Assembly (NCBI RefSeq): GCF_000214375.1 | Contig: NC_015578.1 | Span: 2,170,001-2,234,000, forward strand | Source of the DNA: Treponema primitia ZAS-2 | GTDB taxonomy: Bacteria; Spirochaetota; Spirochaetia; Treponematales; Breznakiellaceae | Length of the DNA stretch: 64,000 nt | Direction: 5' to 3' | Part shown: in pieces, positions 14,241 through 55,396 of the stretch | Layout: the number at the start of each line of letters is the position of its first letter | How positions within the stretch are numbered: position 1 is the stretch's first letter | Program-made: the position numbers and the translations under genes | The notes under the pieces: generated by a model | Told to the model about the DNA's origin: nothing | The model's database searches: none | Seen by the model: the letters and a program-made list of their open reading frames with translations, nothing else

Positions 14241-15520
14241 GATATTATGTTATGAACAGCGATTTATGCTCTTATTCTATTACAGGATATAGAATTAGTC
14301 AATAGCAGACATGAAATATTTTACGAAGGTTTATGATAGAAAACGACCCTTTGTTGCATACATAACTGCATACATTTTATGATATTCGACGACAATATCC
14401 CCATTCCCAATATGATAAAGGTCATTTTCAAAAGCCTAATCCCGGCCCTTTCTGCCTGAACCCTGCTAGGAGCAGTCCATCCCTGAACCCTGTTCCGCTA
14501 ACCCAGAGCCCGAAGCCCCGCCTGTGCCCTCCCTTTTTCTGCCTGGTCCCTCGCAAACCGGGGCCGCCATTCCTCAAGCCGCCGCCCCACCCCCTGTTGT
14601 ATGCCGCCACCTGGCCCCGCTGTCCGCCGCCTGCAACCCGGCGCATACCGAATCCGTAGGACAAACCGCCACAAGCCGTTCCGGTCGCTCCGTAAACTCC
14701 GCTCCCTCCACGGCCCATGGCGCTTTACCCATTAACCAAGGGGGATAAAGGCGGGGACACCATCATTCAAACCGGAAGCCTTTACACCCAGCAGTAAAGC
14801 TGCCAATCCAGGCGGCCCCGCCTTCCCCCTTGACCCCCATAACCACCCCGGCCATCCAATATGCGCCAACACCCGCCGCCTGCCCTTGGCAAGCGGCGCA
14901 TCAGCCGTACCTACAGCCTGGCCCAAAGATTCGCCCTGAAAGCCGCACCCCCATTTTGAAGCCCCCGCCCGCAGCCTCCAAAGCCGGGGCATAATTCCCA
15001 GCGGCCCTCCATTGCCCCATACCGTCCAGCCCTCATGGGGACTAAACCGCATGGGGCAATTCCGGGCCGCCTAAAGCCCACATCAGCCGGTGGGATCCTC
15101 CGGCGCTGCGCTTCTCCGGACACCACCGGCCCCCGTCTTTTCCGCATGGTCCTTCGCATACCGGGGCCATCATCCCCAACCCGCCGCACATCGGCCTTTA
15201 TCCCCACAAGCCATTATCCCCAGCGCTCCGGGGGCGTCCTGCCCCCTCCGCGCCGCATGGTGGCTAGTCCTCACGCCTCCATGCGTACCGTTATCCACAC
15301 AGGCAGTTATTCTAACGCCCTAACGGGCGCCGCTGCTTCGCCCGTGTAAACCCTATTTCCCATCGGCTTTTCATAGCACCGTGGGGAGAAATGCGTACAG
15401 TGCCCACCCCGGGGCCGCGCAACCTTCAAGCATAGAGTAGTCAGGTGGTGGTGTATGGACGACCTCCATTGTCCCTCCCCCTCGCCGCCGGGCTTCCCCC
15501 ACTTCCGGAGAAATAGGAGG

Positions 15521-25991: not shown

Positions 25992-26603
25992 TTAAATTAT
26001 CCTCCGTTGATACGGCTCCAAAAGTTCCTTAGCCCGCTCCGGCATCTTCGCTTCCAAAAACTCCCCGTTCATTCTTTGGCCCCCGCTGCCCCCTGCTACC
26101 CCAACCTTCTTCCCCCGGAACCGCGCCATGTTCCATACCGCCAGTTCAAGGCAAGCAGAAGCCAGGTCCGCCGGGGCATCTGTGGGCTTATACCCCGCCA
26201 CATACCGTACCCGTACCGAAAACGGTGACGAAACCACTCCCGGCCGAATTTCCAGGCAAAACGGAATATCCTCCCCAACCCCGCACTGCGGTATGCAGTG
26301 GAACAATTCAGGATCAATGTCCTCAACGGGTTTCCAGGGCCTGTATTTTTGAGCCTCTAAAATTTTCCGTACCGGGTATTGCTTGAGCGGTACAAACGGA
26401 TCGTCCGAATATTCATGTATTTCCGTCAGTTTGCTTATCAGAAGCCGCCGCCTGCAATATTGCTCTATGCTGTAGGTGGCGGTTACAAGACAGTACCGGG
26501 AGAGGGCATCGTCCCGGTCATCAATGCCGAGGATCTCCTTAAAGTCCGCAAGGGAGATCAGTGAATGAAAGGAACCTGCGGTTCCCATTGTTTGGTTTTC
26601 CAT
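25992..26603 (-). CDS. Head-tail connector protein, gp6-like
   Basis: 203 residues. The N-terminus (LADFKEILGIDDRDDALSRY, CLVTATYSIEQYCRRRLL) is the helical start typical of HK97 gp6-type connectors, and the later part includes a YVAGY motif followed by a long helix (ADLASACLELAVWNMARFRG). This protein forms the ring under the portal. In related phages it follows the capsid gene directly; here 20 kb of cargo lies between. A truncated homologue of its N-terminus sits upstream at 26673-26831. A 19-base motif shared with the terminase operon lies 30-50 bases before the start. Confidence 0.75.
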   Translation of the reverse strand: MENQTMGTAGSFHSLISLADFKEILGIDDRDDALSRYCLVTATYSIEQYCRRRLLISKLTEIHEYSDDPFVPLKQYPVRKILEAQKYRPWKPVEDIDPELFHCIPQCGVGEDIPFCLEIRPGVVSSPFSVRVRYVAGYKPTDAPADLASACLELAVWNMARFRGKKVGVAGGSGGQRMNGEFLEAKMPERAKELLEPYQRRII

Positions 26604-26633
26604 GAAATCAGGATAAAACGGCTTTCAACAACT

Positions 26634-26652
26634 GGATATTTCACAAAGGTAA
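26634..26652 (-). promoter_or_regulatory. Shared leader motif TTACCTTTGTGAAATATCC, copy before connector operon
   Basis: Identical 19 bases occur at 53610-53628 before the HTH-terminase operon, both on the minus strand and both about 31 bases before a start codon. A variant is at 55273-55290 before the integrase and a decayed one at 14314-14330. Either a promoter/operator for the phage late genes or a phage recombination boundary. Confidence 0.6.
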
Positions 26653-26672
26653 CTTTTTGGGGGAAATTTGGC

Positions 26673-26831
26673 CTAAAAGGTGACGGGCATTATTTTCACT
26701 TCGGTGTAGGTAGCCGTAATCAGAACATAGCGGGTCAGGGCATCCTCCCGGTCGTCAATACCGAGCAAAGCCTTAAATTCCCCCAGAGGGACCAGGGAAA
26801 AGAGCCGTTCTTGTTTTGGTGTATTGCCCAT
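26673..26831 (-). pseudogene. Truncated second head-tail connector (N-terminal fragment)
   Basis: A 52-codon frame reading MGNTPKQERLFSLVPLGEFK and on through ALLGIDDREDALTRYVLITA, clearly homologous to residues 10-48 of the connector at 25992-26603 but diverged at many positions. It stops after only 52 codons, where the intact protein has 203. It marks the edge of the 20-kb cargo and suggests recombination between two related phages at the capsid-connector boundary. Confidence 0.75.
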
Positions 26832-36656: not shown

Positions 36657-36658
36657 GT

Positions 36659-37462
36659 TCAGCCCGATGTTTCGCCCAATCCCGCCCGTTTCAAAATTTC
36701 CAACAGCGTTTGTGCGTTCTGTACCGCCTGCCCCCGCGCATGGTTGTTAAAGTACACCAGAATTCTATCTGCCTGCACTTCAATCCGCCGTATCCGGTCA
36801 AGCCAGGCTTCAAGCTCCCGCTCATTATACAGGTAGTCATACCGGGCCACCTCATCGGACCCCCACCATGCCCCGGCATTCCGCCCATGGAGCCGGATAT
36901 ACGCAAAGGGCGCCGTAACCACATCCAGAGCCGGGGGCAGCTTCGCCAAATCCGGCATATCCAGCGCCACCAGCGCCGCCCCCTGTTTTCGCATACCCTC
37001 GATCATCCTCGCGGTATACCAGTCCGCCACCCGGAATTCCACCGCAAGGGGAACCCCCTGAAAACAAGAAAGCACATCCCGCAAATAGCGCCGATTCTCA
37101 GTTGTATAATGGAACGAATAGGGAAACTGGAATAAAACCGCTTCCAGCCGCCCGGCTTGCATAACCGGCTCAATGGCTTCCCGGTATGTCTCCGCCTCAG
37201 CCTTCCAGTTATTAGGGTCAATTTTATGGGTCAGGCTCTGGTGCGCCTTTGCGGAAAAGCCCAAGCCCGGCCCCCCGTCAACAAGCATTTTTGCCAAATT
37301 TACCGCCTTGGGCATGGAATAGTAGGTATAGTCCAGCTCGACCGTATTAAACCGCTCCGCATACAGGGATAGATAGCCCTCTTTTTTGGTTCCCAGGGGG
37401 TACACCGGCCCCAGCCAGTCGGTATAATAAAAGCCGCAGGTTCCTATTAAAATTTTCGCCAT
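36659..37462 (-). CDS. DUF72 family protein
   Basis: 267 residues. Starts MAKILIGTCGFYYTDWLGPV and contains FNTVELDYTYYSMP, LFQFPYSF and VYFNNHARGQAVQNA, the conserved DUF72 (YecE-like TIM barrel) signatures. Biochemical role unknown in the family. As first gene of the DUF72-imuB-dnaE2 operon it takes the place where imuA is normally found. The promoter region is shared with the divergent repressor and holds a likely operator at 37520-37536. Confidence 0.88.
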   Translation of the reverse strand: MAKILIGTCGFYYTDWLGPVYPLGTKKEGYLSLYAERFNTVELDYTYYSMPKAVNLAKMLVDGGPGLGFSAKAHQSLTHKIDPNNWKAEAETYREAIEPVMQAGRLEAVLFQFPYSFHYTTENRRYLRDVLSCFQGVPLAVEFRVADWYTARMIEGMRKQGAALVALDMPDLAKLPPALDVVTAPFAYIRLHGRNAGAWWGSDEVARYDYLYNERELEAWLDRIRRIEVQADRILVYFNNHARGQAVQNAQTLLEILKRAGLGETSG

Positions 37463-37519: not shown

Positions 37520-37536
37520 GTGATTAAAATAATCAC
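37520..37536. promoter_or_regulatory. Probable repressor operator GTGATTaaaatAATCAC
   Basis: A perfect 6-bp inverted repeat with a 5-base spacer in the 112-base gap between the divergent DUF72-imuB-dnaE2 operon and the LexA/CI-like repressor gene. Position and symmetry fit a dimeric repressor site controlling both directions. Only one site is visible. Confidence 0.6.
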
Positions 37537-37574
37537 TTGATTTTAACTGTAGATCAGGGCAATAGAGGGTGTCA

Positions 37575-38198
37575 ATGGAAACCGAGGAAGAACGCTATAA
37601 TTTTCTTCAAAAACGCTCCGGTTTATCAAAATTGGAGTTTGCCCGGAGCCTGGGGGTCTCAAAAGAGCGGGGGTATTCCCTCTCAAAAGGCATTTACCAC
37701 GCTTCTCGTGAAATCCTGGACAAATTGTCCTCCGTATATAACGTCAACCTAAACTGGTTCCTTCTGGGGGAAGGCTCCCCCTTTGAAACCGAAAAAGCCA
37801 CTATCAAGCTGCTTCGTCAGGAAGCCGCCGCCGGACGGGGCCGGGAGATAGAAGACTACGCCGAGGAGGAGACCCTCAAACTCCCCCGATCCCTTATCAG
37901 CCCCTACCGCCCGGAAAACCTACAGGCCGTCTATGTCGCCGGAGACTCCATGATAGGCGAACACATCTACAATGGCGATGCGGTTATTTTTTACCCTGGC
38001 CTTACCGAAGGCAACGGCATCTATGTCCTGTCCCTGGACACCGCATTACTGGTCAAGCGGGTGTCCTTTGACAACCTCCCCCGGTCAGTCTCCCTCATCA
38101 GCGCCAACCCTGCCTATCCTCCCCGGCAGATAAGCGGGGCGGAACTGGAAAATCTGCGGATCGAGGGGCGGGTGGTTACTTGTGTCCACAAAGTTTGA
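37575..38198 (+). CDS. LexA/CI-like repressor with S24 autocleavage domain
   Basis: 207 residues from the ATG at 37575 (AGAGGG in front). An N-terminal helix-turn-helix (about 7-65, SKLEFARSLGVSKERGYSLS) is followed by an S24 peptidase domain. The Ala86-Gly87 bond in EAAAGRG fits the cleavage site; Ser125 in GDSM and Lys161 in ALLVKR form the dyad. Such proteins cut themselves when RecA filaments signal DNA damage. It faces the DUF72-imuB-dnaE2 operon across a palindromic operator, so it most likely makes that operon, and perhaps the prophage, damage-inducible. Confidence 0.85.
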   Translation: METEEERYNFLQKRSGLSKLEFARSLGVSKERGYSLSKGIYHASREILDKLSSVYNVNLNWFLLGEGSPFETEKATIKLLRQEAAAGRGREIEDYAEEETLKLPRSLISPYRPENLQAVYVAGDSMIGEHIYNGDAVIFYPGLTEGNGIYVLSLDTALLVKRVSFDNLPRSVSLISANPAYPPRQISGAELENLRIEGRVVTCVHKV

Positions 38199-38589: not shown

Positions 38590-41500
38590 ATGAACCCCTT
38601 TGAAACAGTCATCCAAAAATACCGTGACACCGCCTTCTCCGAACGGGACAAAGGCTACCGCTTTGAAAAACTCATGCAGGAATACCTCAAATCCGATCCA
38701 CTCTATGCTGCTCAGTGGAGCAATGTCTGGCTATGGGGCGATTTCCCCTCCCGGAATGACTTTTCAGGCAAGGATACCGGAATAGACCTGGTTGCTCGTA
38801 CCATCCACGGCGATTATTGGGCTATCCAATGCAAATGCTTCAAAGAAGATACCCGGATCAACAAGCCGATGGTAGACACCTTTCTGTCCACCTCCGGCAA
38901 ATCCTTCTACGATGTTCTGGAGCCAGGTAAAAAAGTCCGCTTCTCATGCCGCTTATGGCTTGATACCACCATAGCCGGGTTTAACCCCGAAGCCGAAAAT
39001 GTCATAAAAGGACAAAGCCCCGAAGTCAAACGCCGGGGTTATTACGACCTTGTTGACGCCCCCGTAGATTGGGCCAAACTGGACAAAGGAAGTTCCGGCG
39101 AACAGGCCGTAAAAAAGCGGTACAGCCCCAAACCCCACCAGCAGACCGCCATTGATGCTACCCATAACTACCTAAAGACCAGCGACCGTGGCAAACTAAT
39201 AATGGCCTGCGGAACCGGCAAGACTTTTACCAGTCTCCGTATAGCGGAAAACGAAACAGGGGGTAAAGGCTTTGTACTTTTTCTTGTCCCTTCTATTGCC
39301 CTTTTGGGCCAAACCCTCCGGGAATGGTCCGCCCAGGCACAGGAACCCATATACCCCATCTGTATTTGTTCAGACGCCCAAGTCTCAAAGACCAAAGATG
39401 ATGATTCTGTCGTTGATTTAGCCTTGCCAGCTTCCACCAGCATTAAAAATATTACCCAACAATACGACCGTGCCATCGCTTCACAAAAGAAGTCAGGCGG
39501 CTTAGTGGTAGTATTTTCAACCTACCAATCCATAGACGTAATCAGCCAGGTACAGAAGTCCATAAACAAACAAAAACAAGGCTCATTTCTATTTGACCTC
39601 ATTATATGTGATGAAGCCCACCGCACCACCGGCGTAACTATTTCCGGCCAGGACGAATCAGCCTTTGTAAAAGTCCACGACGACAAATTCCTCAAAAGCA
39701 AAAAACGAATCTACATGACCGCAACCCCCCGGCTTTATTCCGAATCGGCGCAGAAAAAAGCAAAAGAGGCGGATGCCCTTTTATGCTCAATGGATGATAC
39801 CAAACTATATGGCGAAGAAATGTACCGTATCGGCTTTGGCGAAGCCGTAGATAAAGAATTGCTGTCCGATTATAAAGTCATCGTCTTAACCATCGAAACA
39901 GAACAGTTAAACGAAAAATTAAAAGCCTCCATTGAAAAACACAATACCAACGAAAACAAGGAAATCGAAGTAGAAGAAGCTCTAAAAATTATCGGTTGTA
40001 TCAATGCCCTCTCCAAAAAATCTTTAACCGATAAAGAAATATTTGAAAACATAGACCCCCAGCCCATGCACAGCGCCGTTGCCTTCTGTCAGAACATCGC
40101 CATATCAAAGGCAACCGCCGAAGCTTTTAATGATGTAAGAGAAGCCTATTTTGAAAGCCTCACCGAAGAACAGCGCAAGGAAATTGTTACCGTAGAATCG
40201 GACCATGTTGACGGCACTATGGGAGCGCAGACCAGGGAACGGAAATTGCAATGGCTTAAATCGGCGGATACCGGAAAGCAGGATTGCCATATCCTCAATA
40301 ATGTCCGCTGTCTTTCCGAAGGGGTAGATGTACCTTCCCTGGACGCCGTTATGTTCCTCTCCGCTCGGAACAGCCAGATTGATGTAGTCCAGTCCGTAGG
40401 CCGGGTAATGCGAAAGGCCCCCAATAAAAAATACGGCTATATCATTATCCCCGTGGTTGTACCGAGTACAGCGGAACCGGAAAAAATCCTTGCCTCCGAC
40501 CGCTTTAATGTGGTATGGACCGTCCTTAATGCCCTCCGCGCCCATGATGACCGTTTTAACGCTACCATCAATAAAATCGAACTCAATAAAAAGAAGCCCG
40601 ATAAAATCAAAGTAACCGGAACCAGCATAGGCGGGGCCGCCGTTGATGGGGATGATGACAGCGGGAGCGGCGCCACAAAGGATCGGAAACTAAAATCCGA
40701 ATTCCAGAAACAAATGGAACTGGAATTCGCCCAATTCCAGGGTTATATTTATGCCAAAATGGTACAGAAATGCGGCAACCGTTTATATTGGGAACAGTGG
40801 GCCGCCGATGTTGCCAATATTGCCGAGCGGCATATCGAACAAATCACCGCCATTGTTTCCCAGCCAGGAAAGCCCAAGGACGAATTCACCCGCTATCTAT
40901 CGGGCTTGCAGAAAAACATAAACCCTTCCGTATCACAAAAAGACGCTATAGAAATGCTGGCCCAGCACATCATCACCCAGCCGGTATTTGAAGCCCTTTT
41001 TGAGGATTATTCTTTTGTCAAAAACAACCCCGTATCCCAATCCATGCAGGGTATTATCAATGTCCTTAATGAAAAAACAACCAAAGAGGACAGCGAGCAG
41101 CTTGACCGCTTCTATGTATCTGTCCGCAAACGTGCCGAAGGTTTAGACAATGGCGAAGCCAAACAGAGGGTAATCAGCGATCTTTACGATAAGTTTTTCC
41201 GTACCGCCTTCCCACTGGTAACTGAAAAATTGGGGATAGTGTATACCCCGGTGGAAATTGTAGATTTTATTATTCACAGCGTCGAGGATGTTTTACAAAA
41301 AGAATTCTCTCGCAGCCTATCCGACGAAAATGTCCATATCCTTGACCCCTTCACGGGGACCGGGACCTTTATAACCCGCCTGCTCCAAAGCGGCATAATC
41401 CGCCCGGAAGATTTAGAACGGAAGTATAACAAGGAAATCCACGCCAACGAAATAATGCTATTGGCCTATTATATCGCTTCAATTAACATTGAGAATGTGT

Positions 41501-43590
41501 ACCATGATTTATTAAAATCCATTGACCCCTATAATGAAGCATTTTTAGAGCCTATTAAGGAATTAGCCGTTGCAGATTCCGGGGCAAAAGCCAAAATTAA
41601 GAAATTCCCAAAAAAAGCGGCTAATCAGGGGTACACAGCTTTTAACGGTATTTGCCTTACCGATACGTTCCAGTTAGGGGAGACAAAAGAAGGCGAAGAC
41701 CTCTTTAGTGAGATATTTCCTCAAAATTCACGCAGAGTGCAGGAACAACAGAAAACACCGTTACGAGTAATTATTGGTAACCCACCTTATTCAGTAGGGC
41801 AAAAGTCTGCTAATGATAACGCGCAGAATCAGCATTACCCAAAACTTGAAGCAAGGATAGCAAATACTTATGCCGCAAATTCTAACGCAACTAATAAGAA
41901 TTCTCTATATGATTCTTACATAAAAGCCTTCCGTTGGAGTACAGACAGATTGAAGGTTCAAGATGGAGGAGTTATCGCCTTTATTACTAATAGTGGCTGG
42001 ATCGAGAAAGGTGGTGGTTTAGATGGTATGCGGAAATGTTTAGAAGATGAATTTTCATCAATCTATATTTTTAATTTGCGAGGAGCAATTAAAGGCAGAA
42101 GCGGCGAATTAGCAAAACGAGAAGGGCAGAATGTTTTTAATATTTTAACAGGTGTTGCAATAACGATTTTAGTGAAAAAGAAATCTGATATAAACACCAA
42201 AGCAACAATCTATTATCGTGATATTGGTGAATATATTAACCGCAAAGAAAAACTTGATATACTAAATAAAGAGAAAACGATATTAGATAGAATAGCAGAA
42301 TCAGAAATATTGAAACCTAATATACAAAGTGACTGGATATTACAAAGAGGAAATTTATTCTCAACATATATTCCATTAGAGCCATTTAAAAAACTTGATG
42401 CAGCTTCAAAAAGTTTTTTCGTTTTATATTCCAATGGTGTGAGTACAAATCGTGATCCGTGGTCTTATAATTCATCAAAAGAAATATTAATTAAGAATAT
42501 GCGCTCTCATGTTCGATTTTATAACCAACAAGTTGATGAATATAAAACTGCATTGCAAAATAATTCTTCATTGAGTATAGATGATTTTAAAAATAATTCA
42601 ACTGATAAAATTAAATGGTCAAGTAGTCTTGAAAATAATTTGAAAAACCTGAAAAAGGCTAAATTCGATGTTAACAATATTGTAATATCAACATATAGAA
42701 CTTTTTTTCAACAATATCTTTATTATGGCGATAAAATGGTACATCGGCCAGGGCAATTTGATCAGTTCTGTCCAAATATTGATACAAAATATTATATTAT
42801 TTGTGTTCCCGCCATTGGCAACAGAGGAGACTTCTCAACTATAATGACGAATAACATTACTGATTTACATATTTCATCAGATGGTACTCAATGTTTTCCC
42901 CTTTATTGGTATGAAAAGAAAAATAAGGTTCAAGGTGGATTATTTGAAAATGTAGAGGATGAATATATTCGCCATGACGCTATTTCAGACTTTATTTTAG
43001 AACAGGCTAAAACCCGCTATGGAAACCGGGTAACAAAAGAGGATATTTTCTATTATGTCTATGGTATTCTCCATAGCCTGGAATATCGCAAAATCTTCGC
43101 CAACGACCTTAAAAAAATGCTCCCCCGGCTTCCATTAGCAAAAAAGCCTCATGATTTTTGGGAATTTAGCAAAGCCGGAAAAAAACTTGCGGATCTTCAT
43201 CTAGCTTATGAGGATCAGAAGAAACCCACCGAGGTTAAAGTAACAGGGACAGAGAAAAGAGATTTTATAGTCAACAAAATGGAATTCGCTAAAAAGGATA
43301 AGAAGGAACAGAAAGATACTATTATCTATAATGCCCATATAACAATTTCTAACATCCCCGCTAAAGCCTATGAATATGTGGTAAATGGAAAATCCGCTAT
43401 CGAATGGATAATGGAACGCTACGCCGTAACCACCCACAAGGAGAGCGGTATAACCAATAATCCCAATGACTGGGCTGCGGAGCATGGGGATCCTCGATAT
43501 ATACTGGATTTGTTGTTATCGGTTATTACCGTCAGCGTAAATACGATTGATATTGTGAATGGATTGCCAACGGTAGAGTTTCAAATTTGA
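38590..43590 (+). CDS. Type ISP restriction-modification enzyme
   Basis: A 1666-residue single-chain enzyme with all parts of the LlaGI/LlaBIII type in order. Mrr-like nuclease: D66 and Q80-x-K82 (GIDLVARTIHGDYWAIQCK). SF2 helicase/translocase: MACGTGKT (205-212), DEAH at 341-344. Coupler region. Gamma-class N6-adenine methylase: DPFTGTGT (919-926), NPPY (1064-1067). C-terminal target recognition domain (about 1090-1500). It methylates one strand of an asymmetric site and cuts after translocating between head-to-head sites. Bases from about 41750 to 42960, coding the recognition part, are more AT-rich than the rest, suggesting the specificity domain was exchanged. Confidence 0.93.
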   Translation: MNPFETVIQKYRDTAFSERDKGYRFEKLMQEYLKSDPLYAAQWSNVWLWGDFPSRNDFSGKDTGIDLVARTIHGDYWAIQCKCFKEDTRINKPMVDTFLSTSGKSFYDVLEPGKKVRFSCRLWLDTTIAGFNPEAENVIKGQSPEVKRRGYYDLVDAPVDWAKLDKGSSGEQAVKKRYSPKPHQQTAIDATHNYLKTSDRGKLIMACGTGKTFTSLRIAENETGGKGFVLFLVPSIALLGQTLREWSAQAQEPIYPICICSDAQVSKTKDDDSVVDLALPASTSIKNITQQYDRAIASQKKSGGLVVVFSTYQSIDVISQVQKSINKQKQGSFLFDLIICDEAHRTTGVTISGQDESAFVKVHDDKFLKSKKRIYMTATPRLYSESAQKKAKEADALLCSMDDTKLYGEEMYRIGFGEAVDKELLSDYKVIVLTIETEQLNEKLKASIEKHNTNENKEIEVEEALKIIGCINALSKKSLTDKEIFENIDPQPMHSAVAFCQNIAISKATAEAFNDVREAYFESLTEEQRKEIVTVESDHVDGTMGAQTRERKLQWLKSADTGKQDCHILNNVRCLSEGVDVPSLDAVMFLSARNSQIDVVQSVGRVMRKAPNKKYGYIIIPVVVPSTAEPEKILASDRFNVVWTVLNALRAHDDRFNATINKIELNKKKPDKIKVTGTSIGGAAVDGDDDSGSGATKDRKLKSEFQKQMELEFAQFQGYIYAKMVQKCGNRLYWEQWAADVANIAERHIEQITAIVSQPGKPKDEFTRYLSGLQKNINPSVSQKDAIEMLAQHIITQPVFEALFEDYSFVKNNPVSQSMQGIINVLNEKTTKEDSEQLDRFYVSVRKRAEGLDNGEAKQRVISDLYDKFFRTAFPLVTEKLGIVYTPVEIVDFIIHSVEDVLQKEFSRSLSDENVHILDPFTGTGTFITRLLQSGIIRPEDLERKYNKEIHANEIMLLAYYIASINIENVYHDLLKSIDPYNEAFLEPIKELAVADSGAKAKIKKFPKKAANQGYTAFNGICLTDTFQLGETKEGEDLFSEIFPQNSRRVQEQQKTPLRVIIGNPPYSVGQKSANDNAQNQHYPKLEARIANTYAANSNATNKNSLYDSYIKAFRWSTDRLKVQDGGVIAFITNSGWIEKGGGLDGMRKCLEDEFSSIYIFNLRGAIKGRSGELAKREGQNVFNILTGVAITILVKKKSDINTKATIYYRDIGEYINRKEKLDILNKEKTILDRIAESEILKPNIQSDWILQRGNLFSTYIPLEPFKKLDAASKSFFVLYSNGVSTNRDPWSYNSSKEILIKNMRSHVRFYNQQVDEYKTALQNNSSLSIDDFKNNSTDKIKWSSSLENNLKNLKKAKFDVNNIVISTYRTFFQQYLYYGDKMVHRPGQFDQFCPNIDTKYYIICVPAIGNRGDFSTIMTNNITDLHISSDGTQCFPLYWYEKKNKVQGGLFENVEDEYIRHDAISDFILEQAKTRYGNRVTKEDIFYYVYGILHSLEYRKIFANDLKKMLPRLPLAKKPHDFWEFSKAGKKLADLHLAYEDQKKPTEVKVTGTEKRDFIVNKMEFAKKDKKEQKDTIIYNAHITISNIPAKAYEYVVNGKSAIEWIMERYAVTTHKESGITNNPNDWAAEHGDPRYILDLLLSVITVSVNTIDIVNGLPTVEFQI

Positions 43591-47486: not shown

Positions 47487-48791
47487 TTACGCTCTAGTTT
47501 TCAAAACAACCATATTCCCCCTCGGCCTGGTCACCAAAAACCCGTCCCGCTTGCGGAACCGCAGGAACAGTTCTCCATACTCCATTGATTCCGTGGTCCC
47601 GTCAAACTTCTTGATTTCAATACCTTTCCTGTTGCCATGCTGGATCCTCTTGGGATTCATGAAGATAGCAAAGGGGGTGTCGTTTTCAATCGCCCCATGC
47701 TGGGGCAGGATGGACACTTCATGATAGGGATACAAGTCCAGCTTGCCCGGCATAGCCTCAGTAGGATGCCGCCAAATCGGGCGCCCATCAGCATCTTCAA
47801 TATTGGCGATATGGTTCAGGACTGTTTCATGCAAGAACCAAGCGCAGTCCTTCCGTTCCTCCGCAGGAACTCTATACACCGCATCCCGAAAGTCTTTCCA
47901 GGTCAGCGCGTTGATATCCGCCCCGGCAATCTCGACTTCCTCTGTCCCATCAGCCGCCAGCGCCCCGGTAAAGGGATCATCGTCAGCCAGGAGGCATTGA
48001 CGGTCAAACTCCTGCCCATACACTTCGGTAAACTCATCGATGAACATGGCGCCCAGGTCAGTAAAGACATCCTCCTCAAATTCGTCAAACCAGGGAATGA
48101 ACCCCGCCAGGGTATAGGCTTTAAGCTCAACGCGCTGCGCCCCTTGGGGCTTGCTCCCGGTAATCTGCTGCCCGTAAGCGGTTAGCCAATGAAGCTGCAC
48201 CCCGCCCCGGTCCCGTGTCGGCAGAAAGATTGACGGCCCCATCATCGGGCGGTGACGCACCAGGGGCATCATCACCGATTTTTTTGCGGCATCCTGCATA
48301 ATCTCGTTTTCATAAATCGGATTGATAAGGTATTGGTCATTGGTTGCCATGTTCCCCATCGGCGAGCCAAGGGCTGCTTTCTCATTGACGTTCCAGCCCT
48401 TCTCCCCCCATGACACATCCCGGGGATTCGTCCAGTTGTCAGCCTTGAGGTTCGGGGTAAAGGACAGTTCCGCCAAGGCCCCATGGTTCCCTGTCCAGGC
48501 CGCCGCCAGGGCTTTGCCCAACCGGTACTGCAATTCCTTCCGGGTCAGCTCCCGGGGATTTGCCGCCTGCCCCTTGAGTTCCCCCCGTAGCTCCTTGACC
48601 GTGCTTTTCAGAGCTTCCGTTTCCTGCAAATGCCCTACCGCAACCGCTTCCAGGGCTTTGACAATATCCTCCAGCAGCTCCTCTTTTTCCCGGAAATAGT
48701 CCGCCGCCTTCTCCTGGTCCCGGAACCCAGCCGCCTCGATTTTCTGCATATCCGCCAGCTTTTTTTTAATCGCTTTAATCAGTTCGTCCAT
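47487..48791 (-). CDS. HK97-type major capsid protein
   Basis: 434 residues from the ATG at 48791 (GGGAG before it). An N-terminal coiled-coil delta domain (about 1-80, ELIKAIKKKLADMQKIEAAG) is followed by the capsid fold; LSFTPNLKAD marks the region after the probable protease cut. It includes a typical E-loop to spine region (NEIMQDAAKKSVMMPLVRHR) and late strands (IFMNPKRIQHGNRKGIEIKK). Encoded in the usual order protease-capsid. It is the last gene of its transcription unit, whereas the connector gene that normally follows is 20 kb away. Confidence 0.85.
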   Translation of the reverse strand: MDELIKAIKKKLADMQKIEAAGFRDQEKAADYFREKEELLEDIVKALEAVAVGHLQETEALKSTVKELRGELKGQAANPRELTRKELQYRLGKALAAAWTGNHGALAELSFTPNLKADNWTNPRDVSWGEKGWNVNEKAALGSPMGNMATNDQYLINPIYENEIMQDAAKKSVMMPLVRHRPMMGPSIFLPTRDRGGVQLHWLTAYGQQITGSKPQGAQRVELKAYTLAGFIPWFDEFEEDVFTDLGAMFIDEFTEVYGQEFDRQCLLADDDPFTGALAADGTEEVEIAGADINALTWKDFRDAVYRVPAEERKDCAWFLHETVLNHIANIEDADGRPIWRHPTEAMPGKLDLYPYHEVSILPQHGAIENDTPFAIFMNPKRIQHGNRKGIEIKKFDGTTESMEYGELFLRFRKRDGFLVTRPRGNMVVLKTRA

Positions 48792-48859
48792 ACCACACTC
48801 CCAATAAAATAGTAATACTGTCAAAGGAGCAGCCAGGCTGACAGCCGGGCGCCCCCTGG

Positions 48860-49555
48860 TTACCCCTGAATAAGCCCGCCCAGGAATTGCCGGGAAGCCT
48901 GCAAATCAAGCGCCACCGGGCCGCCTTCCGCCGGGGAAGCTTTGGCCAGAGCTGCCTTCGCCAGCGCCCAGGGATTCGCCGGGACATTGCACACGCTGAA
49001 TTCCAAAAGTTCCTGCTTGCGAAAAATCAGCGTAGTCCCATCCTCCGCATCCTTCTTTGAAGGAATCTCGATTTCCAGTACCCGGAACCCCACGGACCCT
49101 GCCCTGATAACCCCGGCCTTTACCCGTTCCCCGATACCCCAGCCAAAAGCGTCATAGTCCCTGTCATTAAAGATGATGGACCCGTGCAGCCCCTTGCCAT
49201 CGGCATACAGCCCATCGGCCCGGCCAATCGCCGGGATGTCGTATTTGTGCGCCCACTGAATCACCGGGTTTTGCATAAACTGTTTATAGTCCCAGCCCGC
49301 AGGGTCAATGCGTTCGTCAAAGCGGTCAAGGTCAAAGGTACTGAATGTCCAGGCCACGCCAGAGGCAGTGTCCTGGACATCCCCCGTTTGAAGCGCCAGG
49401 ACAAAGGGTGCCGCCGCAATCACCTCCAAACCGGATTCAACATTCCTGATTCCTCCCTCATCCTTCCCCATTCCCAATTCCCCCCGCAGAAACGCAAGCA
49501 GCCCCGCCCGGTCCCGCACCGCAATTTCCCCGCCCTTATTCCTCAGAATCACCAT
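48860..49555 (-). CDS. HK97-family prohead protease
   Basis: 231 residues, start overlapping the previous gene by 20 bases. Family signatures: NPVIQWAHKYDIPAIG with the catalytic His, IRAGSVGFRVLE with the catalytic Ser region, and ELLEFSVCNVPANPWAL. It trims the capsid delta domain during head maturation. The N-terminal about 65 residues are longer than in typical members. Confidence 0.85.
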   Translation of the reverse strand: MVILRNKGGEIAVRDRAGLLAFLRGELGMGKDEGGIRNVESGLEVIAAAPFVLALQTGDVQDTASGVAWTFSTFDLDRFDERIDPAGWDYKQFMQNPVIQWAHKYDIPAIGRADGLYADGKGLHGSIIFNDRDYDAFGWGIGERVKAGVIRAGSVGFRVLEIEIPSKKDAEDGTTLIFRKQELLEFSVCNVPANPWALAKAALAKASPAEGGPVALDLQASRQFLGGLIQG

Positions 49556-50258
49556 ACACCCCCGTGTCCATCATGTTCCCGCCTTCCCCGAAAGCGGCCT
49601 TCAGCACTTCTTCCAGGCTCACATAGCCCATATACAAGGCAAACAATAAAAGCTGCACCGCATTTTTTATCCCGCACTTTTTGTAAATCCGGCTCTTGTA
49701 GTTCTTCACGGTCTCATAGGTCAGATGCAGGAGCCCGCCAATCTCCCCAGCCGTTTTTCCCCGGCTCAACAGGCACATCAGTTCCCGGTCCTGCATGGTC
49801 AAGCCCTGCTGCTTAAGTTCCCCCAGGCGATAGTCAGAAAAATGCTGTAAAGCCCCGGTTTCAGCTATTTCTTCCGGAAAGTATTCTTTCCCCTCAAGCA
49901 GTTTCCGGCAGCCCTTCAAACAGGCCTCAGGCCCATCCCGGTAATTCAAGTACCCCGCCGCCCCCAGGTTGTAGAAACGCTCCACTTCCTGGCACACCGC
50001 CTTCTCAAAACTGAAAATCGCAAACCGGGCCCGCTCGCTTTTCCCCTTCAAAACCGCCATTAGATACGGCGTAGCAATGTCCGCAAAATTCGATTCCAGA
50101 AACACCAGCCGCGCCTGAAACCGTTTTATTTTTTCCTTCAAATCCTCCAAACCAGAAGCAAGCAGCACCGGCTCATTACGGGTCAGCTGCTCGATATTTT
50201 TGCGAATATATTCTGCAATCGGTACCGAAGTACTCGCCACAATAATATTATTCGCCAT
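49536..50258 (-). CDS. LuxR-type regulator with pseudo-receiver domain inside the head operon
   Basis: 240 residues from the ATG at 50258 (GGGGAAGGG in front). The N-terminal about 125 residues have a receiver-like alternating pattern (ARLVFLESNFADIATPYLMA, VCQEVERFYNLGAAGYLNYR), but the acidic pair is missing and the phospho-Asp position is Glu (LES), so it should not be phosphorylated. The C-terminus is a LuxR/NarL helix-turn-helix (TMQDRELMCLLSRGKTAGEI, LTYETVKNYKSRIYKKCGI). It overlaps portal and protease genes at its two ends, so it is made together with head proteins. Such a regulator in this place is unusual. Confidence 0.8.
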   Translation of the reverse strand: MANNIIVASTSVPIAEYIRKNIEQLTRNEPVLLASGLEDLKEKIKRFQARLVFLESNFADIATPYLMAVLKGKSERARFAIFSFEKAVCQEVERFYNLGAAGYLNYRDGPEACLKGCRKLLEGKEYFPEEIAETGALQHFSDYRLGELKQQGLTMQDRELMCLLSRGKTAGEIGGLLHLTYETVKNYKSRIYKKCGIKNAVQLLLFALYMGYVSLEEVLKAAFGEGGNMMDTGVYGDSEE

Positions 50259-51498
50259 GCCCTTCCCCGGAAGCACCACCGGACTGCAAATCCACCGGTA
50301 CCAGGTTTTTAGGCCGGTACCACTTATTGCCCCAGGGCTTGGGATCCTTCCCGCGCTCTTTCAGAACATCATTGATAGTCTTGAGCCCCGCATTGATCTC
50401 CGCAATATCCCGGCTGCTCTGGGCATCTTCGCTTTCCTGCAATTCAGGGATATCCCAGAGATCAAATTTCCCGGTTTCCTGTAGCCCCAGGCGGATAAAA
50501 AACTGTGTTTCCAGTATGCTTTCAAATTGCCGCAGGGCAGGGATAAGGGTGTATTTCCAGAACGCAGCGTGCTGCTCCTGGGTATCCTTGCCGGAAAGGG
50601 ACGTAGACTTGTCATTGATATTGGCAACCCGTGGAGGGATGCCGTATTTAGCCAGAATAGTGTAGAGGTTCCAGCGTTTCAGCTCGAACAGTTTTATAAC
50701 TTCCGGGGTAAAGGCAAGGGGCTCAAAACTGGTCCCCTTGCCCAGCACCGCAATTTTCCGGTTAGCCCGAACCGCCCCGTATTTGCTTTCCCAGCGCTTT
50801 TCAAGGGCGTCAGCTTCCTCCGGGCGGATAGCCTGGTCAGTTTTCAGAATCCCCATAGGGACAGCGTTATTTTTAAGCAGCTGGCTATTAGCTTTGTTGG
50901 CAAAATAGTCTTGCTCCAGCTCCAGGGCCAGAGCCGCCAGCGGATTAACACCCCGAACCGGGTTCCAGGGGTTCCAGTCCCGGAAATGGATAAGTTCATC
51001 CCGCAGAATAGGTATCAGATCGGTATCAGTCTGATAAAACCACCGCCTGTTTACTTTTTGAAATGGATCACATACGCCCCCCGCCGCACTGTCCTCATGC
51101 CGCACCCTTCTCGGATCAAGAATATAGATCTCATGCGGCAGCCCACCCCCGTACTCGGGACCAAACCACCAGAATGCCTCGCCTTCCAGGTACCACCAGG
51201 CAGCCGTTTCCTTCCAGAGATCGTACCGGCTCATAAGCCGGTTCGGCCTCCTGAACAGATCAAACAGCCGCCCGCCCTTTACATCGTTCCCCCCCCGCAC
51301 AATAACAAAATCTGCCCGTGCAATATTGCGGACTAAAATACCAACCGCAATATTCACCCAGGCATTGTGCAAATACCCATTGCCAGAATATATAGTACTA
51401 TAGTTATCATAATTGTCAAGAAAATTTTCTTTCTCCATGCACTGAGCCGCCATGCCACGAGTTTTCTGTTTGCTAAAAAAGAAATCCCATAGTTTCAT
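50248..51498 (-). CDS. Phage portal protein, HK97 type
   Basis: 416 residues. Signatures: an early clip/wing segment (NAWVNIAVGILVRNIARADF), DELIHFRDWNPWNPVRGVNP, LALELEQDYFANKANSQLLK and IPPRVANINDKSTSLSGKDT. Forms the dodecameric ring for DNA entry at one capsid vertex. Overlaps the large terminase stop by 4 bases (ATGA) and is followed by the pseudo-receiver regulator. Confidence 0.87.
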   Translation of the reverse strand: MKLWDFFFSKQKTRGMAAQCMEKENFLDNYDNYSTIYSGNGYLHNAWVNIAVGILVRNIARADFVIVRGGNDVKGGRLFDLFRRPNRLMSRYDLWKETAAWWYLEGEAFWWFGPEYGGGLPHEIYILDPRRVRHEDSAAGGVCDPFQKVNRRWFYQTDTDLIPILRDELIHFRDWNPWNPVRGVNPLAALALELEQDYFANKANSQLLKNNAVPMGILKTDQAIRPEEADALEKRWESKYGAVRANRKIAVLGKGTSFEPLAFTPEVIKLFELKRWNLYTILAKYGIPPRVANINDKSTSLSGKDTQEQHAAFWKYTLIPALRQFESILETQFFIRLGLQETGKFDLWDIPELQESEDAQSSRDIAEINAGLKTINDVLKERGKDPKPWGNKWYRPKNLVPVDLQSGGASGEGHGE

Positions 51499-52736
51499 TG
51501 CGCGATAATCCCCTGCTGGACATCAGAGAACACCGCATAGCGCAAGGCATCCATAAAGTGGTCATTAAGCTTTATGATTTCCCCCGCCTCATCCCGGCAG
51601 TAGTCCCAAATCTCCGAAAGAACGCCAGTACAGCTATCAGCAACAAAAAACTGACTCCGCTCAATCTTTGCGTTAATAAAGTCAATCCCGCTTTCAACAC
51701 TGTTATTAGCCTTAGTTCCATTCGTAATCTCCTGAATCCGCTCTCCCCCAGCCGGATCGCAGTAAACCGGAAAATCGAGATACTCATACCTGCCATCAGC
51801 GATACTGTCAAACCAATGGCGTGATTTTAGCTCCTCGTTAAACGATTTCGTGGTCATATTAAAAGCGCCGTAATCGGCTAGCACAAAAATTGCGCCATTC
51901 ACCCACCCAATTTTTACATTCGTAATATTGAGCCCAAAATCCTGGCCCGCAGCAACCCGGTCATATTCAGCAGGCATATCCGCCGCTTTCAGAATCATGG
52001 TCTCGTCAAACAGTTCGTAGATAACCCCCTCGGCCTTAACCCAAGACCCATCCCGGAACCGTGCCCGCTGTTTTTCTGGCAGCGCATCCAGCACATCGGA
52101 AATATAGTCATCGGGCAAATGCTCCCGGTTATCAGCCGGGTTAAGCAGCATGGAAGCGTACAGCTCCGGCCGGGCCAGCGGTTCACCGTTCAAAAACTGC
52201 TGCTTGCGAATGAAAATCCTATACGCCCAATGGAGCGGCGAGCCTGGGTTGCAGTCGTAGAGAAACAAATTCCGGCACCCAGGAACCCGCATAGCCAGCC
52301 GTGAATACGCCGTAGTAACCGCAATATAGCTAAGCTGTGAAATCTCGTTAAAATAAATCGTGTTGTATTCATGCCCCAGAATCTTGTCCGCCTGCTCCCG
52401 GTCCCCCAGTCCGCCAATCCAGATTTCAGACCCGTTAAAAAGGGTAATCATGCTTTCATGGGCCAGATAGCTGTAGCGGCTGCTGCCCACCGTATTCGAA
52501 AGTGCAGGCAAAAGCGTTTCCCGCAGCACCGAGGACCGCGCATCCTTGGCCCGGTACCGACAAATCAAATGCCGGGACCCCGCAAAGCGGATCGCCCGGT
52601 AGACAATCACCATCACCAGGACCGTAGTCTTGCCCGACCGGGACCCGCCAAACAGCAGAATATGTTTCGCCCCGCCCTTAACCAGTTTGATAGCTTGCCG
52701 CTGAACCGCAGTAGGGTTAAACACCGCCATACTCAA
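51495..52736 (-). CDS. terL: Large terminase subunit
   Basis: 413 residues. ATPase: Walker A GGSRSGKTT (30-38), then LICRYRAKDARSSVLRETL, and NTIYFNEISQLSY as the Walker B region, with Asn where Asp is usual before Glu. Nuclease: AAGQDFGLNITNVKIGW with the first Asp, and FPVYCDPAGGERIQEI further on. The motor pumps and cuts DNA into proheads. Overlaps both neighbours by 4 bases. Confidence 0.88.
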   Translation of the reverse strand: MSMAVFNPTAVQRQAIKLVKGGAKHILLFGGSRSGKTTVLVMVIVYRAIRFAGSRHLICRYRAKDARSSVLRETLLPALSNTVGSSRYSYLAHESMITLFNGSEIWIGGLGDREQADKILGHEYNTIYFNEISQLSYIAVTTAYSRLAMRVPGCRNLFLYDCNPGSPLHWAYRIFIRKQQFLNGEPLARPELYASMLLNPADNREHLPDDYISDVLDALPEKQRARFRDGSWVKAEGVIYELFDETMILKAADMPAEYDRVAAGQDFGLNITNVKIGWVNGAIFVLADYGAFNMTTKSFNEELKSRHWFDSIADGRYEYLDFPVYCDPAGGERIQEITNGTKANNSVESGIDFINAKIERSQFFVADSCTGVLSEIWDYCRDEAGEIIKLNDHFMDALRYAVFSDVQQGIIAQ

Positions 52737-53269
52737 AGCCCCTCAAACTCAGGGAGAAAGGTAATCTGCCCGTTTTTATCGACCGACCCCTCCGGCTTAT
52801 CCTTCCCAGCCGTAATCCCCGCAGCTTCCCGCTCTGCCCGGATCGCCGTGGAAACCCACTCCGTTACGGTTCCCTGCGCCAGGTCCGCCGGGTCCATCAG
52901 GTCCAGCTTCTTGCTCACCACCTGCAGCATTTTCCCCGTAACCGCCCGGTGGACCTTCCCCTGCTCCTCGATAGTTTTTCGCAGCTCCGCCTGTTTCAGC
53001 TTGTCCAGGTACCCGTCATAATCCGCCGCCCGTTCCCGCCACCGGAACGCCGCCGCCCAGCCCCGCCAGACCCGATACTTCTTGCCCTGTTTCGTTTCGT
53101 CCTTCTCGGAGACCTCCACAGCTTTACGGATATTCCGCTCCGGCCCAAAGTCCCGAAACGCACAGAACGCCGCATAGGCCACAGCACTTTCCCCGGCCAG
53201 CCGTTCCCAGGACTCAAAGGGCATAACTACCGCCTGTACTTCCTCGATGACCTTATTTATGTCCGTCAT
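52733..53269 (-). CDS. Small terminase subunit-like protein
   Basis: 178 residues from the ATG at 53269. It has an early segment typical of terminase small subunits (ESWERLAGESAVAYAAFCAF, DFGPERNIRKAVEV) and a central helical part (YRVWRGWAAAFRWRERAADY). It recognises phage DNA for packaging. Starts inside the end of the HTH gene (17-base overlap) and overlaps terL by 4 bases. Confidence 0.8.
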   Translation of the reverse strand: MTDINKVIEEVQAVVMPFESWERLAGESAVAYAAFCAFRDFGPERNIRKAVEVSEKDETKQGKKYRVWRGWAAAFRWRERAADYDGYLDKLKQAELRKTIEEQGKVHRAVTGKMLQVVSKKLDLMDPADLAQGTVTEWVSTAIRAEREAAGITAGKDKPEGSVDKNGQITFLPEFEGL

Positions 53270-53579
53270 CACCGGCCCCCTTGGAAATGCACTCCGCTTC
53301 CAGCCCGGTAAACAGTTCCGGATTTCTTTCAGCCTCCCCCTTCCCGGAACGGATGCCCGCCGCATCCCCGCCTTTCATGCCCCCGTTAATCCATGCCGCA
53401 ATTTCAGAAGGCCGGAACCGCAAACCGCCCCCAATCTTGATAAAGGGAATCGTTTCTTTCAGTACAAACTTGCGGATCGTGCAAACCTTGAATTGGGTAA
53501 TCCGTGCCACATCATGCACCGTCATCAGGTCCTCGATGACCGTCACCTTTTCCGCCCACACCGTTTTGTCTTTATCCAT
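53253..53579 (-). CDS. Excisionase/MerR-like helix-turn-helix protein
   Basis: 108 residues. A helix-turn-helix of the excisionase type is clear (MTVHDVARITQFKVCTIRKF, ETIPFIKIGGGLRFRPSEIA, then AAWINGG). The same type is found as excisionase or small regulator. Placed between integrase and terminase, it may direct excision or control the late operon. The shared motif at 53610-53628 lies 31 bases upstream. Confidence 0.75.
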   Translation of the reverse strand: MDKDKTVWAEKVTVIEDLMTVHDVARITQFKVCTIRKFVLKETIPFIKIGGGLRFRPSEIAAWINGGMKGGDAAGIRSGKGEAERNPELFTGLEAECISKGAGDDGHK

Positions 53580-53609: not shown

Positions 53610-53628
53610 GGATATTTCACAAAGGTAA
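53610..53628 (-). promoter_or_regulatory. Shared leader motif TTACCTTTGTGAAATATCC, copy before HTH-terminase operon
   Basis: Identical to 26634-26652, same strand and same distance (31 bases) to the next start codon. On the minus strand AAAAAA stretches lie just in front of both copies. Probably the common control point for the two halves of the structural genes. Confidence 0.6.
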
Positions 53629-53656: not shown

Positions 53657-53686
53657 AAAAAAAACGCCCCTGGGAAACCAGGGACG
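53657..53686 (-). terminator. Intrinsic terminator after integrase gene
   Basis: On the minus strand: GTCCCTGG, loop TTT, CCAGGGGC, then GTTTTTTTT. A GC stem with a U run, 22 bases or so after the integrase stop at 53709. It separates the integrase transcript from the late operon. Confidence 0.8.
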
Positions 53687-53708
53687 TTCACAAACCTTTT
53701 TATAAATC

Positions 53709-55148
53709 CTAGACAGCGCCGGCACTATTCTCCGTTACATTACGCTCCTTGCATTCTTCCCACTTCTTCCTGTTCACCACCTCGGCAATAGCCGAGAAAT
53801 CAACCCGCTCAAGCCACACCATAGGATCGCCTATTTCACCCGTTTCCGAAGGCACCACCACATTAAGCACCTGGATATTGACCGCCCCATCCTGCATTGA
53901 GCCCGGAGCCGGTATCTGCGCGGGGAACTTGCCGACTGAAGTCGGCGTTGCAAGTGGCGCGGGGACAGGCATCCCCGGTTTCTGGTCCAGCATTTTTTCC
54001 TGCGCCGCGCGCACATCCGTAAACTTGGAGCCGTCGAAATGGGTATACCGCTCTTTCGTTTTCTTGTTAAGATGGCCCGTCATAGCCATCACCTTATCAT
54101 CGGTAATATTTTCGGTTAGGAGAAAGGTGTTGAAAAAATGCCGCCAGCCGTGCATATGAAGGTTCCGTTTTCTCTGCACATCCCGGGCAATCCCTGCCTT
54201 TTCCAGTGCCCGGTGGTACTCAATAGTTACACAAGCCCGTGATATCGGCTGTGGGGCATTGGGCCTCCAAACGAAAATAAACCCATCCCCATTTTTCGCA
54301 ATAAGCTCCCGCAGCTCATCCTCAACGCCCGCCGGAATAGTAATATACCGGGGCCTTTTTGTCTTAACATTCCGGTAGCCCAGACTGTCAAACTGTTTCC
54401 TAACATAGATATACCCGTTACACACATACTTAGCCTTCAGCCCCAGCAGTTCCCCTATCCGCATACCCGTGCAAGCCGCTAGCATATTCAGCACATAGTA
54501 CAGTTTTTTGCTCCAAACCGTTTCCCAGTTTTCAGGAAACAACAGCTTCACTTCTTCCGGGGTAAGAATAGTCATATCTTCCTGGTACTCATCATCTCCA
54601 TCATCCTGGTTTTTGTCTGAACCGAGCTTCTCAACCAAATCAAACGGGTTGGAAGGGATAAGGCGTAATTTCCTATGGGCGTAGGTCAGCATGGTCCTGA
54701 AAATGTTGTAGGCATTATTGGCGGTAGACTTTTTTAAACCCTTGCCCACCAGAGCAAGCAGCCAGTTATCGATCATGACATCGGTAATCAGATCAATGCG
54801 GCTCTTTTCAAAATAAGGCAAAATATACTGTTTCAGGTTATACGAAGCAGTATCAAGATACCGTTGGGTAAGACTATTCCGGGCGTTACGGCTCTTGGTA
54901 TACCGGCAGGTCTCGAAATCCCACCACCCCTGGGAAAACTCCCCAAAGGTCGGTACTGGCTCTTTTTCCGGCAGCAGCTTCCCCGCCTTCAAAAGCTGGT
55001 TGCAAAACTCCCTTGCCGCTGTTTTGGTCGTTTTCCCCGTGGAATGGCCGCACAGCCGTTTTCCCGCCTCGTCATAGACCTGATAATAAAAGACCACCCC
55101 CGCCGGTGTCTTCCGCTGGTACAGTGAATAAGACTCTCTTACTCGCAT
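53709..55148 (-). CDS. int: Tyrosine integrase of the prophage
   Basis: 479 residues from the ATG at 55148, preceded by AAAGGGG; a longer frame to 55196 lacks such a site. Arm-binding domain (about 1-70), core-binding domain (about 85-185) and catalytic domain with Arg in ACTGMRIGELLGLK, HGWRH, MTGHLN and the nucleophile Tyr in KERYTHF. The C-terminal about 90 residues are Pro/Ala-rich and extra to the family. The gene abuts the attachment core and tRNA-Cys, the standard layout for a tRNA-integrating phage. Confidence 0.92.
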   Translation of the reverse strand: MRVRESYSLYQRKTPAGVVFYYQVYDEAGKRLCGHSTGKTTKTAAREFCNQLLKAGKLLPEKEPVPTFGEFSQGWWDFETCRYTKSRNARNSLTQRYLDTASYNLKQYILPYFEKSRIDLITDVMIDNWLLALVGKGLKKSTANNAYNIFRTMLTYAHRKLRLIPSNPFDLVEKLGSDKNQDDGDDEYQEDMTILTPEEVKLLFPENWETVWSKKLYYVLNMLAACTGMRIGELLGLKAKYVCNGYIYVRKQFDSLGYRNVKTKRPRYITIPAGVEDELRELIAKNGDGFIFVWRPNAPQPISRACVTIEYHRALEKAGIARDVQRKRNLHMHGWRHFFNTFLLTENITDDKVMAMTGHLNKKTKERYTHFDGSKFTDVRAAQEKMLDQKPGMPVPAPLATPTSVGKFPAQIPAPGSMQDGAVNIQVLNVVVPSETGEIGDPMVWLERVDFSAIAEVVNRKKWEECKERNVTENSAGAV

Positions 55149-55263
55149 GGTAAACCCCTTTGCGGGTATTGCAGACATACCTGCATACACCCGCAAAACT
55201 AAGATTTAAACCGCTATTCACAGCTGATTTATTTCTATGTCTGGCAAGGATTTACCTAAAAGC

Positions 55264-55290
55264 GACCTTTTGTATATTTCACAAAGGTCA
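55264..55290. promoter_or_regulatory. Inverted repeat before integrase, variant of the shared leader motif
   Basis: GACCTTTTGT (55264-55273) and ACAAAGGTC (55281-55289) form an inverted repeat with one extra base. The right arm with ATTTCACAAAGGT matches the leader motif seen before the two late operons. It lies 115-140 bases upstream of the integrase start, between integrase and attachment core, and may be a repressor or Xis/Int binding site. Confidence 0.5.
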
Positions 55291-55301
55291 CTTTTCACTA
55301 C

Positions 55302-55325
55302 TTACAACGTAAAGATTTAGACAAA
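55302..55325. other. Right attachment core next to tRNA-Cys
   Basis: TTACAACGTAAAGA followed by TTTAGACAAA leads straight into the 3' end of tRNA-Cys. The same sequence, diverged, is at 1182-1222, and the core alone at 14214. Part of the crossover region is likely inside the tRNA 3' end itself. Confidence 0.6.
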
Positions 55326-55396
55326 GGCGCCGATTGGAATCGAACCAACGCATAAAGGTTTTGCAGACCTCTCCCTTACCGCTTGGGTACGGCGCC
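55326..55396 (-). tRNA. tRNA-Cys (GCA)
   Basis: 71 bases fold as a standard cloverleaf: acceptor GGCGCCG/CGGCGCC, D arm CCC/GGG with AAGCGGTAA, anticodon arm GAGGT-CTGCAAA-ACCTT with anticodon GCA, variable TATGC, T arm GTTGG-TTCGATT-CCAAT. CCA is not encoded. It is the integration target of the element to its left, which leaves it intact. Confidence 0.95.

Follow-up and report, generated by a model that had tools for sequence, protein, structure and literature searches.

The DNA analyzed here (the window) comprises 64,000 nt, positions 2,170,001-2,234,000 of the forward strand of NC_015578.1, from Treponema primitia ZAS-2 (GCF_000214375.1), whose genome is a single contig of 4,059,867 bp. 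It contains a prophage matching the one previously placed at NC_015578 2,202,498-2,225,178 (PMC6581674); that study had already noted synteny and portal monophyly between the ZAS-2 prophage and prophages of hydrothermal-vent Spirochaetes. Within the head genes, a gene for a NarL/LuxR-type regulator, referred to here as REG, shares 11 nt with the portal gene and 20 nt with the prohead protease gene (Table 1). The main text of PMC6581674 makes no mention of a regulator, and the operators and the covariation presented below are not described there.

Table 1 Features of the T. primitia ZAS-2 prophage, in window coordinates
Feature	Position	Strand	Basis or remark
NarL/LuxR-type regulator with degenerate receiver domain (REG)	49536..50258	-	240 aa from ATG 50258
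HK97-type portal gene	50248..51498	-	PF04860 1.5e-61; upstream of REG
Prohead protease (S78)	48860..49555	-	PF04586 3.4e-8, phrog_80; downstream of REG
HK97-type major capsid protein (MCP)	47487..48824	-	PF05065 4.2e-26; closes head block
Terminase large subunit (TerL)	51495..52736	-	PF03237, PF04466, phrog_2
Terminase small subunit (TerS)	52733..53365	-	phrog_6299 3e-19; listed ORF, true start maybe further in
Xis-like HTH_17 protein (Xis)	53253..53579	-	PF12728 9.8e-8; head operon gene 1
Tyrosine integrase (int)	53709..55196	-	PF00589 9.7e-18; listed TTG start, ATG 55148 likelier
Probable int terminator	53661..53690	-	T-run after GC hairpin; identified by eye
tRNA-Cys adjoining int	55325..55396	-	ARAGORN, Rfam tRNA
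Head-tail adaptor	25992..26603	-	phrog_442 3.7e-14; first gene past operator 3
Cargo: type ISP restriction-modification enzyme	38590-43590		
Cargo: S24 repressor	37569-38198		
Cargo: DUF72/DinB/DnaE-type polymerase cassette	32498-37462		resembles SOS mutasome
Putative REG operator 1, int leader	55274..55288	-	ACCTTTGTGAAATAT, exact
Putative REG operator 2, xis/head-operon leader	53612..53626	-	exact
Putative REG operator 3, leader of head-tail adaptor/tail operon past cargo	26636..26650	-	exact
Weak fourth motif copy	14316..14330	-	2 mismatches; may be chance

The tRNA-Cys gene beside int is likely the attachment site; no second att copy or exact att repeat was found within the window, and a search of the leaders for RNA families returned none apart from the tRNA. 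The arrangement of the int terminator recurs in many related leaders. A cargo region of approximately 20 kb (window 26700-47400), which also encodes an ASCH protein, DUF6884 and a RelE-like toxin, separates MCP from the head-tail adaptor. In the G034 prophage, whose adaptor is 92% identical, about 19 kb lie between the same two genes. A D5-type primase/helicase is encoded at window 16638-18032, near the far end of the prophage.

The REG reading frame is intact, being open from GTG 50279 or ATG 50258 through the stop at 49536, and the better ribosome-binding site, ggggaagggcATG, precedes ATG 50258. Pfam detected a GerE (LuxR HTH) domain above the gathering score (E=2.6e-9, residues 159-214 of the GTG ORF) as the sole domain above cut-off, with no match to Response_reg. 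The NCBIfam NarL/UvrY/CsgD models span both REG domains, with scores all far below their cut-offs. The structure prediction proposed in the earlier note returned an AlphaFold2 model (pLDDT 80) with a complete (beta-alpha)5 receiver fold and an HTH. When this model was compared with known structures using Foldseek and VIA-align, NarL-type response regulators ranked first; the best PDB matches were NarL-family proteins such as LiaR, RcsB, EvgA, VraR, VpsT and NarL, with a VIA-align Z of about 16 against NarL-family receivers. By the criteria of the NarL/FixJ family, the LuxR/GerE HTH and the predicted receiver fold are present and the phosphorylation quintet is absent, and for lack of the quintet REG was not filed as a canonical response regulator. 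The model and its pocket instead correspond to the published definition of a pseudo-receiver, a receiver fold without the key catalytic residues (PMC12632262). The description of this gene in the earlier note as a pseudo-receiver LuxR regulator in a head operon is thus borne out by the ORF, the GerE domain, the predicted fold and the TerS, TerL, portal, protease and MCP neighbors. No histidine kinase was found among the prophage ORFs scanned. The nearest cellular relatives in the P0001 genome scan, L031 and L032, resemble ordinary response regulators, and L032 adjoins a histidine kinase and has kept its phosphorylation pocket.

In REG of the window, Glu55 occupies the place of the phospho-Asp at the end of strand 3, Ser/Thr replace the acidic pair, and Asn stands at the Lys position. 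Among 124 relatives, position 55 is Gly in 42, Glu in 38, Asp in 24 and Ser in 12, and Lys is found at the aligned position in six. The earlier observation of Glu in place of the phospho-Asp therefore holds for this protein and not for the family, where the residue may be Gly, Glu, Asp or Ser. Since position 55 is variable and most members have also lost the acidic pair and the Lys, a phosphomimetic Glu is probably not what matters in the REG family. Distant REG proteins also vary at the pocket; one of them, L256, retains LDLFLPGMNG, suggesting descent from a true response regulator.

To place REG in a wider context, we examined related loci, collected mainly via the portal or capsid protein; of the loci behind the first profile, 14 had entered via REG itself. 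REG lies between portal and protease in all 126 distinct related loci that have both genes, and likewise in 20 of 20 further loci found by portal in the Spirochaetia families f3, f19 and f21 (weakest REG match, 36 bits), giving portal-REG-protease in 146/146 spirochaete phage loci examined. The common order is int-xis-terS-terL-portal-REG-protease-MCP. As one portal/capsid-based collection was limited to the best 80 of 147 candidates, there may be a remoter relative that lacks REG. Deposited phages with approximately 24-26% portal identity have other neighbors or another order around portal: in GBK2 a prohead protein follows portal, in mu1/6 a small gene stands between portal and the downstream protease, and in PAJU2 portal stands in a different gene order. 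The earlier note had proposed a search for the portal-regulator-protease order in other phages; absence of the gene from all related phages, with evidence for a recent random insertion or a lack of translation, would have spoken against it. The order was found throughout the 146 loci, a conservation well beyond what the note could tell from the sequence alone, and together with purifying selection on REG (dN/dS 0.07-0.34 in close pairs) this rules out a recent insertion or an untranslated ORF.

Several individual loci depart from the common arrangement. L126:1504-6779 carries two REG genes, one straight after xis and one between portal and protease, and in L117 and L098 REG is split over two reading frames. 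L040:8853-11714 has int-xis-REG without head genes, beside restriction-modification and ATPase cargo, and is possibly a small integrative element retaining only the switch.

REG diverges far more than its neighbors, with a median pairwise identity of 33% compared with 68% for protease, 72% for portal, 78% for MCP and 84% for TerL; an alignment of all members was too divergent for a viral scan. The HTH core is intact and its base-contact positions are variable. Four genomes hold two or three elements of this kind; between co-resident elements identity is 82-99% for MCP, 21-29% for REG and 33-44% for Xis. The identity of co-resident REGs is not below that of random phage pairs (median 33%), and the idea of an incompatibility between co-resident REGs was dropped because random pairs are equally different. 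The ZAS-2 chromosome itself holds a second element of the lineage, L033 (host C1:2124500-2132200), whose MCP is 92% and whose REG is, depending on the alignment, 24-29% identical to the window counterpart; its integrase is reversed and placed after MCP, and the element is apparently decayed.

A candidate target for REG is the 15-mer ACCTTTGTGAAATAT, which occurs in three exact copies in the window, at the leaders of the int, xis/head and tail operons. Allowing up to one mismatch, no further site exists in the 4.06-Mb genome, and a reversed-pattern control gave one match. The closest relative has the motif at all three corresponding places and the next at two; operators 1 and 2 are kept in two relatives, and operator 3 has the same place in the G034 prophage. 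The tail leader (window 26603-26680) is nearly identical in G034; it looks as if the late operon had been restarted there after the cargo arrived. The motif is absent from the site near 37520 that the earlier note had named as an operator, which sits in the cargo region between the S24 repressor and the DUF72/DinB/DnaE2 cassette.

Comparable motifs, different from phage to phage and often dyad-symmetric, were found in related phages. Of the 43 loci in which both the int and the xis leader are present, 25 (22 distinct phages) have a motif of the phage's own in the two leaders, and this motif almost never occurs elsewhere in the examined contigs. With a generic operator model, nAAAATTGCACAAAACnCCnATTTnn, 51 of 64 xis leaders yielded a site above threshold, typically right behind the int terminator; the weakest of these sites are doubtful and were excluded or replaced by hand-aligned sites in later analyses. 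In the distant f3 phages, a search for a motif common to the two leaders found none. The xis leaders of the distant L258, L246 and L247 contain phage-specific direct repeats with an exact spacing of 21 bp, or two helical turns (scores 29, 15 and 12, respectively; shuffled maxima about 10). Given these repeats and the lack of a shared motif, the circuit may differ in f3 phages.

When 46 leaders were aligned on the operator center alone, a -10-like element emerged at a fixed distance downstream in 39 of them, with A at +32 in 41/46, T at +36 in 43/46, T at +37 in 38/46 and A at +43 in 29/46. In most phages this would place the center of the putative operator some 43 bp upstream of the inferred start site, over the -35 region. 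No -35 consensus was seen in the leaders, and the xis leader of the window is an exception in that no clear -10 stands at this distance. A Gibbs search of the sequence past the operator caught a GC-rich stretch instead of the -10. A conserved sequence after the int-leader motif was rejected as a -10 alone, because it partly consists of a palindrome close to int that may be an att or Int-binding element; the int-leader -10 was weighted less for this reason.

Operators of class II activators lie over the -35 region. Because the putative operator covers this region, REG is most likely a class II-type activator. The same overlap, and the presence of the motif at two leaders of the lysogeny-to-lysis switch, would also suit a repressor that keeps int, xis/head and tail down during lysogeny and restricts its own synthesis. 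We regard this alternative as unlikely, since such a repressor would need to be expressed while its own operon is off, yet REG is fifth in the late operon, and the absence of a -35 consensus fits dependence on an activator.

Mantel-type tests were then used to relate operator similarity to protein similarity across 46 phages (1035 pairs); six of the operators added beyond those of the EM model had been aligned visually, and shared ancestry is not fully removed from these correlations. Operator similarity correlates with REG (rho 0.56), its receiver (0.53), Xis (0.52) and the REG HTH (0.49), and much less with TerS (0.23), int (0.12), protease (0.07), TerL (0.04) and portal (-0.02). As int evolves fast and adjoins the motif, it serves as a control for both rate and position. 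With all other genes controlled, the partial r with the operator is 0.32 for REG (p=0.001), 0.20 for Xis and 0.00 for int, and after thinning to REG identity below 60% (37 phages) it is 0.34 for REG and 0.19 for Xis. Among the covarying REG columns, recognition-helix residue 182 ranks third and residue 189 is in the top 20, a moderate enrichment.

REG and Xis are themselves correlated (0.74, partial 0.67) despite the TerS, TerL and portal genes between them, mostly through the receiver (partial 0.53, compared with 0.16 for the HTH). The covariation of Xis with the operator is almost as strong as that of REG, and in the smaller 22-phage set the two could not be separated as motif binders. The Xis-like protein might therefore bind the motif itself, REG covarying merely through binding, or being controlled by, Xis; excisionases do contact DNA near int, and the REG-Xis link through the receiver would agree with this. 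We consider it quite unlikely that Xis is the binder, for four reasons: the partial correlation is larger for REG despite the roughly 3.5 kb between its gene and the xis leader, a copy of the motif stands at the tail leader 27 kb away, many of the motifs are dyads, as fits a LuxR dimer, and the HTH of REG keeps a partial r of 0.19 with receiver and Xis controlled.

The invariant place of REG between portal and protease, and overlapping genes that suggest translational coupling, could also point to a morphogenesis factor, a scaffold-like or packaging-associated DNA binder built on an old regulator fold. This is very improbable: REG identity barely tracks that of portal, TerL and protease (correlations of just 0.16-0.36), REG matched no head or scaffold family in Pfam, PHROG or NCBIfam, its HTH core is well preserved, and MCP has about 100 extra N-terminal residues and could serve as its own scaffold.

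We therefore favor the reading, to which we assign a probability of roughly 60%, that REG is a core, phage-private activator, independent of phosphorylation and probably self-amplifying, which ties excision to the production of heads and tails. Points that count against it are the covariation of Xis with the operator, the suitability of the operator position for a repressor, the missing -10 at the usual distance in the xis leader of the window, the failure to find a shared leader motif in f3 phages, and the shared ancestry left in the correlations. REG outpaces the shell genes and changes in step with the motif at the phage promoters; it is for this reason that we regard it as the probable on-switch, private to each phage, of excision and particle assembly. 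The suggestion in the earlier note that the regulator may time late gene expression is indirectly supported, in that a phage-specific motif stands at the int, xis/head and tail leaders and covaries with REG.

Binding, activation, autoregulation and partnership with Xis are what we infer for REG under this activator reading. A captured NarL-family response regulator would have become a core factor of a temperate-phage lineage of Spirochaetia. A REG dimer would bind an operator of about 16-26 bp. Such operators would lie in the leader of each transcription unit of the phage: that of int, that of xis-terS-terL-portal-REG-protease-MCP and, in phages whose late region is interrupted by cargo, that of the tail operon. 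As the REG gene lies inside an operon under REG control, the loop would be self-amplifying and, once on, would bring about both excision, by Int and Xis, and the synthesis of heads and tails. The Xis-like protein would probably be a partner of REG, perhaps via the pseudo-receiver. Because the specificities of REG, Xis and operator drift together, each phage would have its own wiring. More tentatively, and at somewhat less than even odds, a Spirochaetia-wide lineage may carry a co-evolving REG/Xis/operator specificity module within otherwise conserved, exchangeable head genes, insulating near-identical co-resident prophages by a self-amplifying switch.

If this reading is correct, it would define a control circuit for a phage lineage of hard-to-culture spirochaetes and show a two-component regulator that has become an obligate virus core gene. 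More than 40 naturally occurring regulator/operator pairs would also become available for work on specificity change in LuxR-type proteins and on the insulation of co-resident prophages. How bacterial pseudo-receivers are driven is still open (PMC12632262), and the covariation of REG names a concrete candidate partner for one, the Xis-like protein.

Among known systems, the bacterial pseudo-receivers CsgD and VpsT have, like REG, a receiver fold without the phosphorylation quintet, and both appear among the structure or profile matches of REG. The pseudo-receivers reviewed in PMC12632262 are cellular, and the word "phage" is absent from the main text of that review. BldM and WhiI of Streptomyces (PMC4125116) are, like REG, orphan atypical NarL/LuxR regulators, and act without phosphorylation; BldM binds a 16-bp palindrome, and its pairing with a partner alters its targets. 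In contrast to the hypervariable, phage-encoded REG, they are highly conserved chromosomal regulators of development. The small-protein induction modules of polylysogenic vibriophages (PMC10432266) exert phage-specific control to which co-resident prophages respond differently, as proposed here; these modules use other proteins and another logic, and competition was measured there, whereas the REG circuit is proposed from sequences. The role proposed for REG is that of the phage-coded late-promoter activators P2 Ogr/P4 Delta and staphylococcal RinA/ArpU (PMC9867676). REG gave no Pfam or PHROG match to the Ogr/Delta or RinA/ArpU families at E up to 0.1; it differs from them in its unrelated fold and in its location inside the head block.
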